Origin: Terriglobia bacterium
GTDB taxonomy: Bacteria; Acidobacteriota; Terriglobia; Terriglobales; Acidobacteriaceae
Assembly (NCBI GenBank): GCA_020073665.1
Contig: JAIQEU010000014.1
Coordinates: forward strand, 1 to 64,000
Direction of reading: 5' to 3'
DNA length: 64,000 nt
Positions within the stretch are counted from its first letter, which is position 1; every line of letters begins with the position of its first letter. Shown here piece after piece: positions 15,985-20,515 of the stretch. The position numbers were made by a program, and so were the translations under genes. The notes beneath the pieces were generated by a model, which was not told the origin of the DNA, did no database searches, and saw only the letters and a list, made by a program, of their open reading frames with translations.

Positions 15985-16719
15985 TCATTCTTCCAATCGT
16001 GCAGCCTTGATTTCGGTCACCACGTGGTTGACCTGCGCCGGCCCGTGTAAGCCGCACTCCGTCTTGTTGAAGCCTGACCATCGTCCGGCCCGTGGGTCTT
16101 CTCCGGGCAGAACCCGCCGGGTGCAGTGCGTGCAGCCAATGCTGGGGTAGTCCTGATCGTGCAGGGGATTGTAGAGAACGTTGTGCTCGCGGACGTAGCG
16201 CCAGATCCTCTCCGAGGTCCAGTCAGCCAGGGGATTGATCTTCACCAGGTGGAATCTCTCATCCCACTCCACCTTGCGCGCAGCCGCCCGGAACGAGGTC
16301 TGATCACGGCGGATACTGGTGATCCAGGCGCTCAGTTGCGACAGTTTGTTCCGCAGCGGCTCCACCTTCCTGAGGTTGCAGCAAACGTCCGGGGATCGAC
16401 TCCAAAGTGCTGCCCCGTACTGCTGTTCCTGTTCCTCGGGCGTGAGTGCCGATCGCAGCCGTTCCACCGTGATGCCATAGCGTTTTTCAATCCCTTCCAT
16501 GAGGGCATAGGTTTCGGGAAACAGGAAGTCGGTGTCGAGGGTGAACACGCGCAGGCCCGGCTGCAAACGCGCGGCGATGTCAATCAGCACCACGCCTTCG
16601 ACCCCGAACCCCGAAGCGATTTCGACGTGCTGCTGGAACGTGGCAAATGCCCAACGCAAGACGTCCTCGGCAGTCCACCGCTCGGCCAACTGATGGATCT
16701 TCTCTACTTCTGCGTTCAT
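15985..16719 (-). CDS. cysH: Assimilatory adenylyl-sulfate (APS) reductase, [4Fe-4S] type
   Basis: A 244-residue PAPS/APS reductase-family protein that reduces activated sulfate to sulfite using a thiol donor. The cluster cysteines are visible as CCNLRKVEPL plus CTHC (IGCTHCTRRVLPGEDPRAGR), the pattern of the iron-sulfur APS-using enzymes rather than E. coli PAPS reductase. The catalytic C-terminal cysteine is in ECGLH. The substrate loop is present in LDTDFLFPETY. Its start codon overlaps the stop of the SUMT gene (ATGA, 16716-16719), so it is the last gene of the nirA operon. No ATP sulfurylase (sat or cysDN) is nearby, so sulfate activation must be encoded elsewhere. Confidence 0.92.
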   Translation of the reverse strand: MNAEVEKIHQLAERWTAEDVLRWAFATFQQHVEIASGFGVEGVVLIDIAARLQPGLRVFTLDTDFLFPETYALMEGIEKRYGITVERLRSALTPEEQEQQYGAALWSRSPDVCCNLRKVEPLRNKLSQLSAWITSIRRDQTSFRAAARKVEWDERFHLVKINPLADWTSERIWRYVREHNVLYNPLHDQDYPSIGCTHCTRRVLPGEDPRAGRWSGFNKTECGLHGPAQVNHVVTEIKAARLEE

Positions 16720-17507
16720 GCTCTCTGCTCCTCATCCACGACTGAATGGATCGAATTCAAGCTCTGCCCTAAGAGGTCCCCCTGCAGGGTTACGTGACAG
16801 CCCGCCTGCCGCGACACCTCACCGATCACAAGCAAGATTGGCGCCGGAAGTTGCGGGGCATTCTGCAGATCCTCCAGGCTGGTTGAAAACACCTGTTCTT
16901 CGCTGGTTGTTGCCCGCGAAATCACGGCACAAGGGGTATCGCCAGCTAGCCCGGCGGCTTGCAGCTTGCCGGAAATCTCTCCGTACCGGTAGCCGGGCAT
17001 GTAGATCACGACGGTGGCTCCCAGCGAAACCAGCGCCTGCCAGTTGGTCGGGTTTGGTTCGGCGGCATGTTGGCCGGCCAGAAACACCACAGCGTGAGCG
17101 GCACGACGGTCGGTCAGCGGAATTTGCGCAGTAGCGGCTGCCCCGAGGGCGGCGGTAATGCCAGGGACAATTTCAAACTCGATGTCGGCTTCTCGGAGCG
17201 CAGTAATCTCCTCGGCGACACGCCCAAACACCAGCGGGTCTCCGCCCTTGAGGCGCACCACCCGAAGCCCCGACGCAGCCAGGTTCACCATCAGAAAGTT
17301 GATTTCTTTTTGTCGGATGTTCTTTTTCCCGCAGCGCTTTCCGACGCTATGCAGTTGCGCATGAGGAGCAGCCAGTTGGAGTATCCCAGCACCGACCAGG
17401 TCATCGTGAAGCACCGCGTCTGCACTCTTCAGCAGGCGTGCCGCCTTCAACGTGAGCAACTCGGGATCGCCCGGCCCGGCGCCCACCAGGAACACTTTGC
17501 CTTTCAT
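16716..17507 (-). CDS. cobA: Uroporphyrinogen-III C-methyltransferase (SUMT)
   Basis: A 263-residue tetrapyrrole methylase beginning with KGKVFLVGAGPGDPELLTL, followed by VRLKGGDPLVFGRVAEE, the SAM-binding and substrate loops of SUMT. It makes precorrin-2 from uroporphyrinogen III. The next enzyme, precorrin-2 dehydrogenase, is immediately upstream with a 4-nt overlap, and the product siroheme is the cofactor of the nirA-type reductase that opens the operon. Translational coupling is likely on both sides (ATGA overlaps). In E. coli these activities are fused in CysG; here they are separate genes. Confidence 0.93.
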   Translation of the reverse strand: MKGKVFLVGAGPGDPELLTLKAARLLKSADAVLHDDLVGAGILQLAAPHAQLHSVGKRCGKKNIRQKEINFLMVNLAASGLRVVRLKGGDPLVFGRVAEEITALREADIEFEIVPGITAALGAAATAQIPLTDRRAAHAVVFLAGQHAAEPNPTNWQALVSLGATVVIYMPGYRYGEISGKLQAAGLAGDTPCAVISRATTSEEQVFSTSLEDLQNAPQLPAPILLVIGEVSRQAGCHVTLQGDLLGQSLNSIHSVVDEEQRA

Positions 17508-18124
17508 GAAACTCCAACTCCTTTCGTAGTTCTTTCCTCGGTCGCAACGGCAGACTCGAAGGCCTCCGTACTTGCCAACGACTGCAGGAGTTCGCGTTTG
17601 CGTCCCGGAGCAAGGTTGCTTGCCAGGATCCGGCGCCGAGTCTTGCCCAGTTCTTTGACCCAGAGTGCGTAATCCGGCCCAAACTGCCGTTCCAACTGCT
17701 GGCGGATGCGCTGGGCCAGAAACGGGCTCTGTCCTCCGGTTGAAACCGCAATCTGCAAGTCGCCGCGTCGCACCACCGCCGGATAGAAGAAGTCACACTG
17801 CTCCGGAAAGTCGACCACGTTGCAGAGCACTCCGCGGCGGCGCGCTTCGCCAAACACGCACTGGTTCAGTTCCCGCGACCCGCTCGCGACCACCACCAGG
17901 AACACGCCATCCAGATCCGCGGGGACAAATGCCCGCTGGTGGAGCACGATGCTGCCGGATGCGGCCCATTCCAGCGTGGTCGGGCTCGCTTCGAGTGCCA
18001 CCACGCATATCCGTGCCCCGGTGCCAAGCAAACCCGCGATCTTGGGCTCACCCACCCGGCCCGCGCCCACCACCAGCACCACGCGCCCTTCGAGTTTTAG
18101 AAACGCCGGAAACAGCTCTGGCAC
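17504..18124 (-). CDS. Precorrin-2 dehydrogenase / sirohydrochlorin ferrochelatase
   Basis: A 206-residue protein equivalent to the N-terminal half of CysG (Met8p/SirC-like). The Rossmann motif GRVVLVVGAGRVGEPKIAGLL binds NAD; the conserved NVVDFPEQCDFFYPAVVRRG segment carries the catalytic Asp, and STGGQSPFLAQRIRQQLE is also typical. It oxidises precorrin-2 to sirohydrochlorin and may insert iron to give siroheme. It lies 18 nt after the reductase gene and overlaps the SUMT gene by 4 nt. Whether it has chelatase activity cannot be told from sequence. Confidence 0.88.
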   Translation of the reverse strand: MPELFPAFLKLEGRVVLVVGAGRVGEPKIAGLLGTGARICVVALEASPTTLEWAASGSIVLHQRAFVPADLDGVFLVVVASGSRELNQCVFGEARRRGVLCNVVDFPEQCDFFYPAVVRRGDLQIAVSTGGQSPFLAQRIRQQLERQFGPDYALWVKELGKTRRRILASNLAPGRKRELLQSLASTEAFESAVATEERTTKGVGVS

Positions 18125-18142: not shown

Positions 18143-19846
18143 TCAACCTTCAATCCCGTGCGGCATCAGTCCAGTGGGGACGTCTCGCGCAGTCGCTTCC
18201 ACGGCTCCTCCTGCCAGGAAGGCTCGCAACTCCGTATCGCTGTAGCGGACAAAGAACTGGCGCAGGTTTTCACCCGGCAAACTCAGATCCAGATACCGTC
18301 GCAGCAGCCGCTCAATCGCGTCCGGCACTTCACTGGCCAGGCAGCGATACCCCACCGGGCGCGCCAGGGACTGGTGCAATCCCACACCGCCTCCCAGACA
18401 AAAGTAGTAGGCGTCGAGCATCTGGTCGCCGACCTTGATCTTCTTGCCTTCGATTCCTACGTCGGCGATCCAGTGCTGGCCGCAACTATTCGGGCAGCCG
18501 GTCACGTGCAGCCGTAGGTGTTGTGCAAACCCGGGCAACCGCTCGTCGAGTTCCTCCACCAGCCAGCGCGAGAAGCTCTTGGTTTCGGTGATGGCGAGTT
18601 TGCAGAACTCGGACCCACTGCAAGCGACCACACCCCGTGCGAAGGGAGACCCACCTACGCGAAGGCCGATCGCTTCTAGTTCCTGGGCCAACTCCTGACC
18701 GCTTGCCTGGGGCACGTTCACGATCAGCAGGTTCTGCATGTTGGTGGTTCGCAACTCGCCTTGGGCGAAGCGGTCGGCCAGATCTGCAGCTGCGTGCATC
18801 TGGTCGGCGGTTATCCGGCCGCGCAGCACCGAAGCCCCTACGTAGCAGTACCCATCCTGTTTTTGCGCGTGGATGCCAACGTGGTCGCGGAAGACATCGT
18901 CCGGGATGGGCTCCTCGACCCCCGGTTCGAACTTGAACCCGACGCGGCGCTCGAGTTCTTTCTGGAAATCTTCGGCAGTCCAGCCATGTCGCAGGAAAAG
19001 GAATTTCAGACGTGCCCGCTCGCGATGCTGTCGCAGCACATGGGATTCGCGGAACAATTCCGCCACGCCCTTCAGCACGGGCAGAACCTGGTGCCAGCGC
19101 ACGAAGGCATTCAGACGAGTGGCGAAATGCGGTTCGGTAGAGAGGCCGCCACCCACGCGCAAGGAGAAGCCAGCCTCCGGATGTCCATTGAGTGTTCGGT
19201 GGACCGCCGTCAGCCCGACATCGTTAATCTCCGGATAGGCGCACCACACCCGGCAGCCGCTAATCGCGATCTTGAACTTGCGGGGCAGGTTGTAGAACTC
19301 TGCATTGCCCACGAACAGGTTGCTGGCCTCAAGCGCCAGCGCAGAGGCATCGCAAATCTCGTCTGCGTCCACCCCGGCTACGGGGCATCCCGTGATGTTG
19401 CGGGTGACGTCGCCGCAGGCGCCCAGGGTATTCAGGCCGCATCGCCAGAGCGCTTCCAGGATTTCGGGCAGCGCGTCGATCGTTACCCAGTGCAGCTGGA
19501 TGTTCTGCCGTACGGTGATGTCGGCGATTCCGCGTGCGTAGCGCCGCGTCAGGTCAGCGATCGTTCGCAGCTGATAGGAGGTAAGCAGGCCGTTCGCAAT
19601 CCGGATGCGAACCATGAAGCAGGGCAGAGCCTTGCCTTCGCCGCCTTTCCCGCCCACCACGCCCGCTCCATCTCCTTGTGTGTAAACACCCCACCAGCGG
19701 AAATACGTGCCCAGCCAATCCGGTGGTATGGAGTCGAAGCCCTGGCGCGCGAAACGCCTGATTTCTTCGAGCCCCGCAAACGGATTCTTTTCCCGCTTCA
19801 GGCGCTCAACTCGTTCGGCTTTGGTCTCGTTGTCAGTTTTCGCCAT
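18143..19846 (-). CDS. Ferredoxin-dependent sulfite (or nitrite) reductase, siroheme type
   Basis: A 567-residue member of the NirA/CysI family with two ferrodoxin-like repeats and the siroheme-[4Fe-4S] ligands CSGSEFCKLA and TGCPNSCGQHW. It carries out six-electron reduction of sulfite to sulfide or nitrite to ammonia. Sequence alone does not separate the two, but its operon with cysH and siroheme genes, and a cysteine-codon leader upstream, argue for sulfite. The ATG (19846) directly follows the U-tract of a terminator hairpin. The only Shine-Dalgarno-like bases, GGTGGG at 19863-19858, lie inside the 3' arm of that hairpin, so formation of the hairpin would also hide the ribosome site. Confidence 0.88.
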   Translation of the reverse strand: MAKTDNETKAERVERLKREKNPFAGLEEIRRFARQGFDSIPPDWLGTYFRWWGVYTQGDGAGVVGGKGGEGKALPCFMVRIRIANGLLTSYQLRTIADLTRRYARGIADITVRQNIQLHWVTIDALPEILEALWRCGLNTLGACGDVTRNITGCPVAGVDADEICDASALALEASNLFVGNAEFYNLPRKFKIAISGCRVWCAYPEINDVGLTAVHRTLNGHPEAGFSLRVGGGLSTEPHFATRLNAFVRWHQVLPVLKGVAELFRESHVLRQHRERARLKFLFLRHGWTAEDFQKELERRVGFKFEPGVEEPIPDDVFRDHVGIHAQKQDGYCYVGASVLRGRITADQMHAAADLADRFAQGELRTTNMQNLLIVNVPQASGQELAQELEAIGLRVGGSPFARGVVACSGSEFCKLAITETKSFSRWLVEELDERLPGFAQHLRLHVTGCPNSCGQHWIADVGIEGKKIKVGDQMLDAYYFCLGGGVGLHQSLARPVGYRCLASEVPDAIERLLRRYLDLSLPGENLRQFFVRYSDTELRAFLAGGAVEATARDVPTGLMPHGIEG

Positions 19847-19888
19847 AAAAAGAAAAACCCACCGCCAGCTTGATCTGGCGGTGGGTTT
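19847..19888 (-). terminator. Intrinsic terminator (attenuator) before the sulfite-reductase operon
   Basis: On the minus strand AAACCCACCGCCAG (19888-19875) and CTGGCGGTGGGTTT (19868-19855) form a perfect 14-bp stem with loop ATCAAG, overlapping the U-tract TTTTTCTTTTT that ends at 19847. It lies between the leader ORF and the nirA-like start, not after a gene, so it is placed to attenuate the operon. An upstream segment at 19937-19925 can pair with the 5' arm instead. Confidence 0.9.
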
Positions 19889-19914
19889 GAAAATATGCCG
19901 ATACTAAGAAAGTT

Positions 19915-20010
19915 TTAGGTCAGCAACCTCACGCCAGAAGACACGGCCGCGCAGCCGCAACAACACAGGCAGCAACACGGACAGCTCTTCTGGTTCAGAC
20001 CCCACATCAT
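19915..20010 (-). CDS. Cysteine-rich leader peptide (31 aa)
   Basis: Begins with ATGATG at 20010-20005 and ends with TAA at 19917-19915. Eight of 31 residues are Cys, at positions 10, 12-14, 16-18 and 20 (SCPCCCLCCCGC). The start lies about 7 nt after a TACTAT -10 box, so the transcript should be leaderless or nearly so, and there is no room for a Shine-Dalgarno sequence. Segment CCAGAAGA (19993-19986), just before the Cys run, is complementary to TCTTCTGG (19941-19934), just after it. This is the arrangement of amino-acid leader peptides in attenuated biosynthetic operons; here the sensed amino acid would be cysteine, end product of the operon's pathway. Confidence 0.8.
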   Translation of the reverse strand: MMWGLNQKSCPCCCLCCCGCAAVSSGVRLLT

Positions 20011-20016
20011 TCGCTG

Positions 20017-20046
20017 ATAGTAAACATGCCGAATCGGGATTGTCAA
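20017..20046 (-). promoter_or_regulatory. Sigma-70-type promoter of the cysteine leader and sulfite-reductase operon
   Basis: Minus strand: TTGACA (20046-20041), 18-nt spacer, TACTAT (20022-20017). The -35 is a perfect consensus and the -10 has 5 of 6. The expected start of transcription is at about 20011-20010, coinciding with the first ATG of the leader ORF. It lies 22 nt after the merR-like stop codon. Confidence 0.75.
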
Positions 20047-20068: not shown

Positions 20069-20515
20069 CTACCCACATCTCCCTTTGGCGGTGTTGCAGG
20101 CAGACTTAATCCCGGCATTCTCGCAGTCACTGCGAAATATCCCCCTGCCGCATTGATCGAAAGTCTCACAGTGGCACCGCCGCATCATCTTCCGGAGCAA
20201 TCGCTGCATGGTCCGGATCGCATCCGCCAGACGGTCAAGTTCTGTGAGTTTCTTCGCAGAGAGCGTGCGCCAGCGTTCCGACGCCCGGGTGGGATTGCGA
20301 AATCCGAAGAACAATTGTCGAACTTCGTCCAGCGTGAAACCCAGCTGTCGCGCCCGCTGGATGATGGCCAACCGGTAGAGGACGGTGGTGTCATAGCGTC
20401 TCTGCCCGCTCATTCGCTGGGCGGGAGGCAGCAGTCCGATCTGCTCGTAGTACCGGATCGCAGACGGTTGCAGCCCAATCTGGCGTGCTACGCCGGAAAT
20501 GGTCAATGTGGACAT
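20069..20515 (-). CDS. MerR-family transcriptional regulator
   Basis: A 148-residue protein with the MerR winged helix-turn-helix at the N-terminus (TISGVARQIGLQPSAIRYYEQIGLLPP, then GQRRYD) and a dimerisation helix (about residues 75-115). The C-terminal end is Cys-rich (RCHCETFDQCGRGIF, then further Cys), resembling metal- or redox-responsive members, though no known metal signature is exact. It is divergent from the DinB-like gene; the shared region contains a dyad inside a 19-bp promoter spacer, the usual MerR operator arrangement. It precedes the cysteine leader on the same strand but that operon has its own promoter. Effector unknown. Confidence 0.85.
   Translation of the reverse strand: MSTLTISGVARQIGLQPSAIRYYEQIGLLPPAQRMSGQRRYDTTVLYRLAIIQRARQLGFTLDEVRQLFFGFRNPTRASERWRTLSAKKLTELDRLADAIRTMQRLLRKMMRRCHCETFDQCGRGIFRSDCENAGIKSACNTAKGRCG

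Follow-up and report, generated by a model that had tools for sequence, protein, structure and literature searches.

Can a ribosome that reads a run of cysteine codons decide whether an acidobacterial operon of sulfur assimilation is transcribed? The question is raised by the minus strand of the window, i.e. the whole stretch of 64,000 nucleotides that was analysed, where a short Cys-rich reading frame and a series of complementary segments lie directly before a reductase gene. In our judgement the element is very probably a trp-type ribosome-mediated transcription attenuator that would sense charged tRNA-Cys by means of a near-leaderless ORF. Its parts, their spacing and conservation, the alternative folds, the gene context and the codon specificity can be read from the sequences; the start of the transcript, translation, stalling, termination and the response to cysteine are inferred, and there are no transcript, ribosome or reporter data.

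The leader region and its operon

The genes downstream of the leader are in the order nirA-like, cysG-N, cobA, cysH:

18143 to 19846, minus strand: nirA-like ferredoxin-dependent sulfite/nitrite reductase, the first gene regulated under the attenuator reading
17504 to 18124, minus strand: siroheme synthase N-terminal domain (cysG-N), TIGR01470 above cut-off
16716 to 17507, minus strand: uroporphyrinogen-III C-methyltransferase (cobA/cysG-C), TIGR01469 above cut-off
15985 to 16719, minus strand: phospho/adenylyl-sulfate reductase (cysH), NF002537 and TIGR00434 above cut-off

The reductase stays under the NCBIfam cut-offs of the NirA models (ferredoxin-nitrite reductase, 368.7 vs 594), and its closest solved protein is NirA of M. 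tuberculosis (1zj8). Because of the cysG/cysH context, sulfite is inferred to be the likely substrate. A MerR-family gene (20069-20515, minus strand), CueR/MerR-like and below the cut-offs, is found directly upstream of the leader in the same direction.

The following parts were located in the leader region:

20017 to 20046, minus strand: predicted sigma-70-type promoter, TTGACA-18-TACTAT (sequence and promoter score)
19915 to 20010, minus strand: near-leaderless leader ORF of 31 codons with 8 Cys codons at positions 10-20
19986 to 19993, minus strand: segment 1, CCAGAAGA, partner of 19941-19934
19925 to 19941, minus strand: segment 2, TCTTCTGGCGTGAGGTT, putative 5' strand of the antiterminator and partner of segment 1
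19896 to 19925, minus strand: predicted conserved hairpin around the leader stop codon (folds and pairing in alignment A1)
19875 to 19888, minus strand: segment 3, 5' arm of the predicted terminator and alternative partner of segment 2
19855 to 19868, minus strand: segment 4, 3' arm of the predicted terminator (14-bp stem)
19847 to 19854, minus strand: U tract of the predicted intrinsic terminator, TTCTTTTT (sequence)

The -35 box (TTGACA, 20046-20041) and the -10 box (TACTAT, 20022-20017) are separated by an 18-nt spacer, and the ATG of the leader (20010-20008) stands six bases past the -10 box. The ORF sequence is MMWGLNQKSCPCCCLCCCGCAAVSSGVRLLT, with the stop codon at 19917-19915. Three pairings can be drawn, i.e. 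1:2 between CCAGAAGA (19993-19986) and TCTTCTGG (19941-19934), 2:3 between CTGGCGTGAGGTT (19937-19925) and AACCCACCGCCAG (19887-19875), and the 14-bp terminator stem 3:4 between AAACCCACCGCCAG (19888-19875) and CTGGCGGTGGGTTT (19868-19855). The ATG of the reductase, at 19846, follows directly after TTCTTTTT. A first-pass annotation of this region had listed the promoter, the 31-codon ORF with its 8 Cys codons, segments 1-4, the terminator and the reductase start, and all of these were verified base by base. The stop-codon hairpin, the arms of which are TGCTGA (19925-19920) and TCGGCA (19901-19896), was absent from it.

The probability of finding at least 8 Cys among 31 codons by chance is 3.8e-6 if 1/32 is taken per codon, and in the six frames of the 64 kb more than 5 Cys in 11 codons occur only at this leader. 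The covariance models of Rfam 15 (riboswitches, T-box and other families) gave no match in the window at the gathering score, and a riboswitch or T-box was set aside for lack of such a match. ARAGORN returned nothing in the window.

Conservation of the leader before nirA

With distant paralogues counted, a threshold of E <= 0.001 gives a NirA match in 81 of 100 relatives; at E <= 1e-100 a match is present in 312 of the 398 genomes of the family. Upstream DNA was taken for 114 loci (L001-L114), i.e. for the closest ones and a spread of distant ones, not for all; L043, which is without upstream sequence, was dropped before the counts, leaving 113 usable loci. Under a strict definition the element has a short ORF with at least 4 Cys per 12 codons and a hairpin with a T tail, at least as stable as -12 kcal/mol and not more than 75 nt from the ORF stop. 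This definition is met by 89 of the 113 nirA loci; 5 have only the ORF and 19 have neither part. It is not met by any of 339 dinucleotide shuffles (ORF only in 10) or by any of the 113 reverse strands (ORF only in 2). Likewise, at least 5 Cys in 12 codons are seen at 66 of 95 loci vs 2 of 95 reverse strands and 15 of 1900 shuffles. Eighteen loci were placed by coordinates, without an N-terminal match.

The strict definition fails at 24 of the 113 loci, 16 of which have only 3 clustered Cys. The failures include L030, where the Cys leader precedes a different first gene (L253), as well as L112 and L113, in which nirA is apparently internal to a cysN-cysH-nirA operon as judged by eye. The latter two were kept in the strict-definition and partition-function counts and excluded from the structure, spacing and codon counts, and loci without a terminator or without CTGGC were omitted from the duplex, spacing and partition-function counts. 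In the scan of named loci, from which L144, L162 and L176 are left out for lack of upstream sequence, 51 of 59 usable acidobacterial loci meet the definition, most of them from Acidobacteriaceae, Terriglobia and Candidatus Sulfotelmatobacter MAGs. The named and unnamed sets are not independent, since many named loci (L115-L194) are from the same genomes; the loci are moreover related, i.e. the conservation counts are not independent of each other.

The leader is not one isolated case, as many acidobacterial genera have it. The first-pass annotation had suggested looking before homologous operons for Cys runs and alternative pairings, and this comparison, once run, was positive. It also bears on the objection that a chance Cys-rich ORF merely happens to lie next to an unremarkable terminator belonging to the MerR gene upstream. 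Terminators and short ORFs are indeed common, but the combination of Cys ORF and terminator is far above what shuffles and reverse strands give, a near-consensus promoter stands between the MerR gene and the terminator, and the arrangement is conserved across genera. We regard a coincidence of this kind as barely conceivable.

No leader was detected at any of 18 NirA homologues from other phyla (14 Rokubacteria, 3 Methylomirabilota and 1 Actinomycetota MAG), the NirA proteins of which are 65-72% identical to that of the window. Some of these controls may be operon-internal, because 2 of the 18 have an open stretch of 470-700 codons that ends 29-43 nt before nirA; an operon-internal gene is not expected to have a leader.

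As a separate observation, MAGs of Rokubacteria and Methylomirabilota (L166, L169, L171, L173, L174 and others of L148-L194) have an acidobacterial-like NirA without the leader. Either interphylum gene transfer or mislabelled contigs would account for this.

Promoter distance, cysteine codons and spacing

A promoter scoring 8.5 or more was found in 100 of the 105 loci counted. These promoters come close to the consensus, and 91 of the 100 loci have the start codon 5-13 nt after the -10 box (median distance 9 nt, 10-90% range 6-13). Given this distance, the predicted 5' UTR is a few nucleotides long at most and leaves no room for a Shine-Dalgarno site. The leaders have a median length of 28 codons.

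The Cys clusters of the 105 loci contain 634 Cys codons, 432 TGT and 202 TGC, and not a single TGG, i.e. silent change is free and coding change is unseen. TGT makes up 68% of the Cys codons in the leaders vs 13 of 53 in eight ORFs of the window (TGC 40); slower wobble decoding might make the stall sharper. At 87 of the 105 loci there is a run of at least 3 Cys codons. In 57 of 78 loci the final codon of the run starts exactly 16 nt ahead of CTGGC, and in 65 of 78 CTGGC stands 23 nt ahead of the leader stop codon. The edge of a stalled ribosome is usually placed some 12-13 nt past the first A-site base. With these ribosome dimensions the two spacings fit an arrangement in which segment 2 would be free during a stall and covered when the ribosome is at the stop codon.

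The variability along the leader was examined in alignment A1; of the 84 loci selected for it 70 were kept, and 14, near-duplicates and outgroups, were removed by hand. It is conspicuous that columns 109 and 112, which are 4-fold degenerate positions of segment 2, hold T and C, respectively, in 65 of 70 sequences each. In 64 of the 70 sequences column 109 is the third position of a codon; columns 106 and 115, the third positions on either side, are variable. Judging from this pattern, segment 2 is kept as RNA. At the N-terminus the non-Cys residues vary, and so do the number and the spacing of the Cys codons.

These data can be held against the idea that the product is a functional Cys-rich peptide, either metal- or redox-binding or arresting its own nascent chain, and that the hairpin is independent of it. 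Small Cys-rich peptides can bind metals, and the presence of a MerR-type gene just upstream would suit such a role. Nevertheless, the N-terminal non-Cys residues and the number and spacing of the cysteines are all variable, and the conserved C-terminal stretch is, to judge by its 4-fold sites, kept as RNA. This stretch lies behind the stop codon in L012 and is read partly in another frame in L066 and L013; these are single genomes in which errors are possible. A functional peptide is in our view very improbable.

Alternative structures

Under the attenuator reading the segments should form two mutually exclusive states, and the first-pass annotation had proposed that the energies of 1:2 with 3:4 be compared with that of 2:3. 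Both states form in silico in the window. The naked leader folds into 1:2 plus 3:4 (MFE -69.6 kcal/mol, z -5.5, none of 200 shuffles as good), and the terminator region folded alone gives -27.5 kcal/mol. RNA 19941-19875, which approximates the portion left free by a run-stalled ribosome as long as segment 4 has not been made, adopts the 2:3 fold at -20.3 (z -3.4, 1 of 200 shuffles as good). In the partition function the probability of 2:3 is 1.00 with a stalled ribosome and 0.02 in the naked RNA. In the same calculation 75 of 80 loci exceed a probability of 0.5 when a stalled ribosome is assumed, vs 30 of 80 as naked RNA; this is a matter of consistency and not of proof, because removing the competing upstream RNA can only raise the probability of 2:3.

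Covariation was evaluated in A1 and in a second alignment, A2, in which 51 loci remained after the 72 that passed limits of CTGGC distance and length were thinned of sequences more than 90% alike. For the terminator and the stop-codon hairpin together, 89.5% of the cells in A1 are paired and 11 pairs show double changes vs 4.7 in shuffled alignments (0 of 500 as high); no slid version of the structure matches any of the five measures. In A2 there are 10 such pairs vs 4.0 (0 of 500 as high), with the caveat that one slid control equals the count of doubly changed pairs and exceeds the further pair types (2 of 5 measures). The shuffles ignore relatedness in both alignments. Taken separately in A1, the 3:4 stem has changes on both sides in 8 of its 14 pairs, and the stop-codon hairpin, with 83.1% of its cells paired, in 3 of 6. 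RNAalifold applied to A1 returned the terminator only and not the stop-codon hairpin. All 105 loci have at least 5 T among the 12 nt that surround the end of the hairpin, T-rich tails having been required by the detector; the terminator called in L041 has a poor T tract.

The core of 2:3, CTGGCG/CGCCAG, is paired in 92.6% of the A1 cells with zero double changes, and column covariation is lacking in the main clade because the core is invariant there. In 72 of 104 loci the 2:3 duplex outperforms 95% of its shuffled versions, and together with the folds this makes the antiterminator mutually exclusive with the terminator in silico. Among the 33 loci with a non-consensus segment 3, 2:3 beats 95% of the shuffles in 14, and in 9 it surpasses at least 90% of the duplexes made by swaps within this group. 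Clear lineage-specific 2:3 pairs are those of L064, L019, L021, L041 and L047, of which L021, L041 and L047 have strong duplexes yet are outside the strict definition. Several loci, e.g. L006, L025, L026, L037, L063 and L091, pair better with the consensus than with their own segment 3, and in outgroup loci, e.g. L023, L025, L026, L028 and L036, no 2:3 duplex beyond shuffles was found with the segment boundaries chosen. The support for 2:3 lies in the conservation at 4-fold positions and in other matching pairs of some divergent lineages.

The 1:2 stem is the weakest and least conserved part. It is clear in the window and better than 95% of shuffles in only 37 of 104 loci. The pairs that flank its CTGGC/GCCAG core exceed permutation over 72 related loci (0 of 2000) and also if only unique combinations are considered (23 of 5000), the latter in a test that is biased towards the observed pairs. 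The four-segment architecture of the first-pass annotation is upheld by covariation for 3:4, by conservation at 4-fold positions and by matching pairs of some divergent lineages for 2:3, and only in part for 1:2.

The distance between hairpin and nirA bears on a further possibility, in which the Cys uORF tunes the exposure of a nirA ribosome site within the 3' arm of the hairpin, i.e. the control would be translational, as is reported for mycobacteria, and would not involve termination. In the window, where the first-pass annotation had placed the reductase ribosome site inside the terminator arm, the gap is 8 nt and GGTGG lies within the 3' arm, and the hairpin ends not more than 12 nt from nirA in 24 of 105 loci. 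This placement is local: in 57 of the 105 the distance is at least 25 nt, up to 189 nt, and the T-rich tract, albeit demanded by the detector, follows the hairpin in every locus. We therefore hold purely translational control to be improbable; in the window both transcription and translation may be affected.

The element at other genes

A covariance model of the element, R1, in which part of the Cys run is encoded as sequence, has matches in 38 of 100 relatives. Forty matches are neither at nirA orthologues nor antisense; 39 of them correspond to regions L232-L270 and the fortieth lies within L241. Sulfur-linked genes, identified by protein families or by eye, follow 19 of the 39 regions. They include NirA-like reductases, siroheme synthase, CysD, cysteine synthase and rhodanese, the transport proteins are sulfate and sulfonate binding proteins and TauE- and YeiH-type transporters, and there are also MoaD-like carriers and a carbonic-anhydrase-like protein, for which the sulfur link is presumed. 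At least 5 Cys in 12 codons are present at 14 of the 19. The Cys leaders of L241, L242, L248, L253, L260 and L265, which precede genes for MoaD-like carriers, an SsuA-type sulfonate binding protein, YeiH- and TauE-type exporters and the carbonic-anhydrase-like protein, suggest a wide cysteine regulon. One genome, G018, has two successive attenuators, one before a MoaD-like gene (L241, by eye) and one before a CysD-like gene, the latter being an R1 match directly before that gene (G018:C12:694) with a 3-Cys reading frame.

By eye, another 17 of the 39 regions precede genes of aspartokinase (12; L232, L233, L234, L236, L238, L239, L243, L246, L249, L252, L257 and L262), homoserine dehydrogenase (2; L250 and L264), ilvC (2; L240 and L251) and ilvB (1; L258). 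None of these 17 has more than 2 Cys. Thr/Met-rich leaders could be placed behind a scored promoter at 7 of the 14 aspartokinase and homoserine dehydrogenase loci, an example being MLSVSQKPVTSKRMTTTTSTGTGTSMCFWRKGK in the aspartokinase leader L234, and the ilvC leader L240 is Ile/Val-rich. As Cys is found at sulfur genes and Thr/Met at aspartokinase genes, the sensor codons seem to follow the pathway on one RNA chassis. The leaders of the aspartate-family and branched-chain genes may form a second attenuator regulon in the Acidobacteriota relatives. The Thr/Met-rich peptides on the same chassis are, moreover, a further point against a functional Cys-rich peptide.

On balance we lean towards a modular chassis in Acidobacteriota, which would consist of a near-leaderless ORF, a 16-nt ruler, a stop-codon hairpin and a CCCACCGCCAG-type terminator, with sensor codons swapped according to the pathway, i.e. 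Cys at genes for the uptake and reduction of sulfur and for the synthesis of siroheme and cysteine, and Thr/Met at aspartokinase and homoserine dehydrogenase genes. If this is true, a ribosome that reads Cys-tRNA runs sulfur assimilation in much of the phylum, and a dedicated regulator protein is not needed.

The remaining 3 of the 39 regions (L245, L254 and L255) precede other or unidentified genes. Two of them, L254 and L255, have 5 Cys in 12 codons before a FadL-type outer membrane protein and a TonB-receptor-like protein, with no sulfur link seen.

In the window's own genome the nirA copy is the only full-length R1 match of weight. The next match, L197 (19.5 bits), is behind a gene that by eye looks like clpB/clpC-type and was taken as chance. 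Neither the cysK/M-family genes (L271-L273) nor the aspartokinase gene (L275) has a Cys leader in this genome, L271-L275 are without an R1 match, and CysD was not found there.

Proposed mechanism

Transcription would begin at the ATG of the 31-codon Cys-rich ORF, or a few bases before it, and the ORF would be translated without a Shine-Dalgarno site. When cysteine is scarce the ribosome would stall on the Cys run with its leading edge just short of segment 2, which would then be free to pair with segment 3, the stop-codon hairpin being stacked inside. With 2:3 paired the terminator cannot form, and it is proposed that nirA-cysG-cobA-cysH would therefore be transcribed. With ample cysteine the ribosome would reach the stop codon and cover segment 2, and a terminating ribosome would melt the stop-codon hairpin. 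After release, or if the leader is not translated, segment 2 could pair with segment 1. Both with ample cysteine and without translation 3:4 would form, and transcription would halt before nirA.

The trp-type logic with cysteine as the signal, as put forward in the first-pass annotation, is supported by the conserved Cys runs, the alternative pairings and the spacing, the response to cysteine being inferred. As far as sequence comparison can tell, the evidence supports that interpretation in all but details, and the element is wider than had been noted.

Comparison with known systems

The trp, his, thr and leu attenuators of enterobacteria have four segments, codons for the product of the pathway, and a ribosome at the stop codon that covers segment 2. 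The element described here resembles them in its proposed four-segment logic, in its product codons and in the inferred position of the ribosome over segment 2 at the stop. It differs from them in that the signal is cysteine, there is no room for a Shine-Dalgarno site, and a stop-codon hairpin is placed inside the antiterminator.

Polycysteine leaderless sORF attenuators of mycobacteria were reportedly described by Canestrari and colleagues in 2020. In line with the first-pass annotation, which had mentioned Cys-rich leader ORFs at sulfur genes of mycobacteria, the accessible parts of the literature report that mycobacterial leaderless sORFs with Cys runs respond to cysteine (PMC9031893, PMC9094748, PMC13236596) and that translation of the downstream gene is controlled (PMC9031893, PMC13236596). 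So far as these partial texts allow a comparison, the two systems share a short ORF, leaderless there and predicted to be near-leaderless here, contiguous Cys codons and, by inference in the present case, a ribosome the speed of which reads cysteine; they differ in that the control is described as translational there, and the phylum is another one here. Transcription is the likely target in the present case because of the strong intrinsic terminator and the mutually exclusive antiterminator.

For Acidobacteria, a survey of 2010, as far as its text was available, contained almost no predicted attenuator with an associated function (PMC2965389), and leader genes have been counted by phylum with Acidobacteria included (PMC4833913, seen in part). 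Searches of the open literature turned up no acidobacterial cysteine attenuator, which agrees with the earlier statement that no acidobacterial case is known; Lopatovskaya et al. 2010 might contain acidobacterial amino-acid attenuators, and the accessible portion of PMC8079986 has nothing on one of this type. The element would be a cysteine-reading attenuator of sulfur assimilation that terminates transcription, uses a near-leaderless ORF and belongs to a soil phylum of wide distribution. It yields a searchable signature, i.e. model R1, and a candidate regulon. Moreover, the leaders are a natural series in which the identity of the codons changes on a constant RNA chassis, so that the stall-site ruler is directly testable.

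A predicted counterpart with transcription as its target is uORFC-8-2, a ribosome-mediated transcription attenuator predicted before cysS in Rhodobacterales (PMC8632094, in the part available). The two have Cys codons and a terminal U run in common. According to the same partial source, uORFC-8-2 has two tandem Cys codons and is found only at cysS and in Alphaproteobacteria (PMC8632094). The present locus does not meet its criteria, i.e. two tandem Cys codons before cysS, as the downstream gene is nirA-like. The leaders described here are set apart from it by Cys runs of at least 3 codons, by sulfur-assimilation genes downstream, by the near-leaderless ORF and by the stop-codon hairpin.
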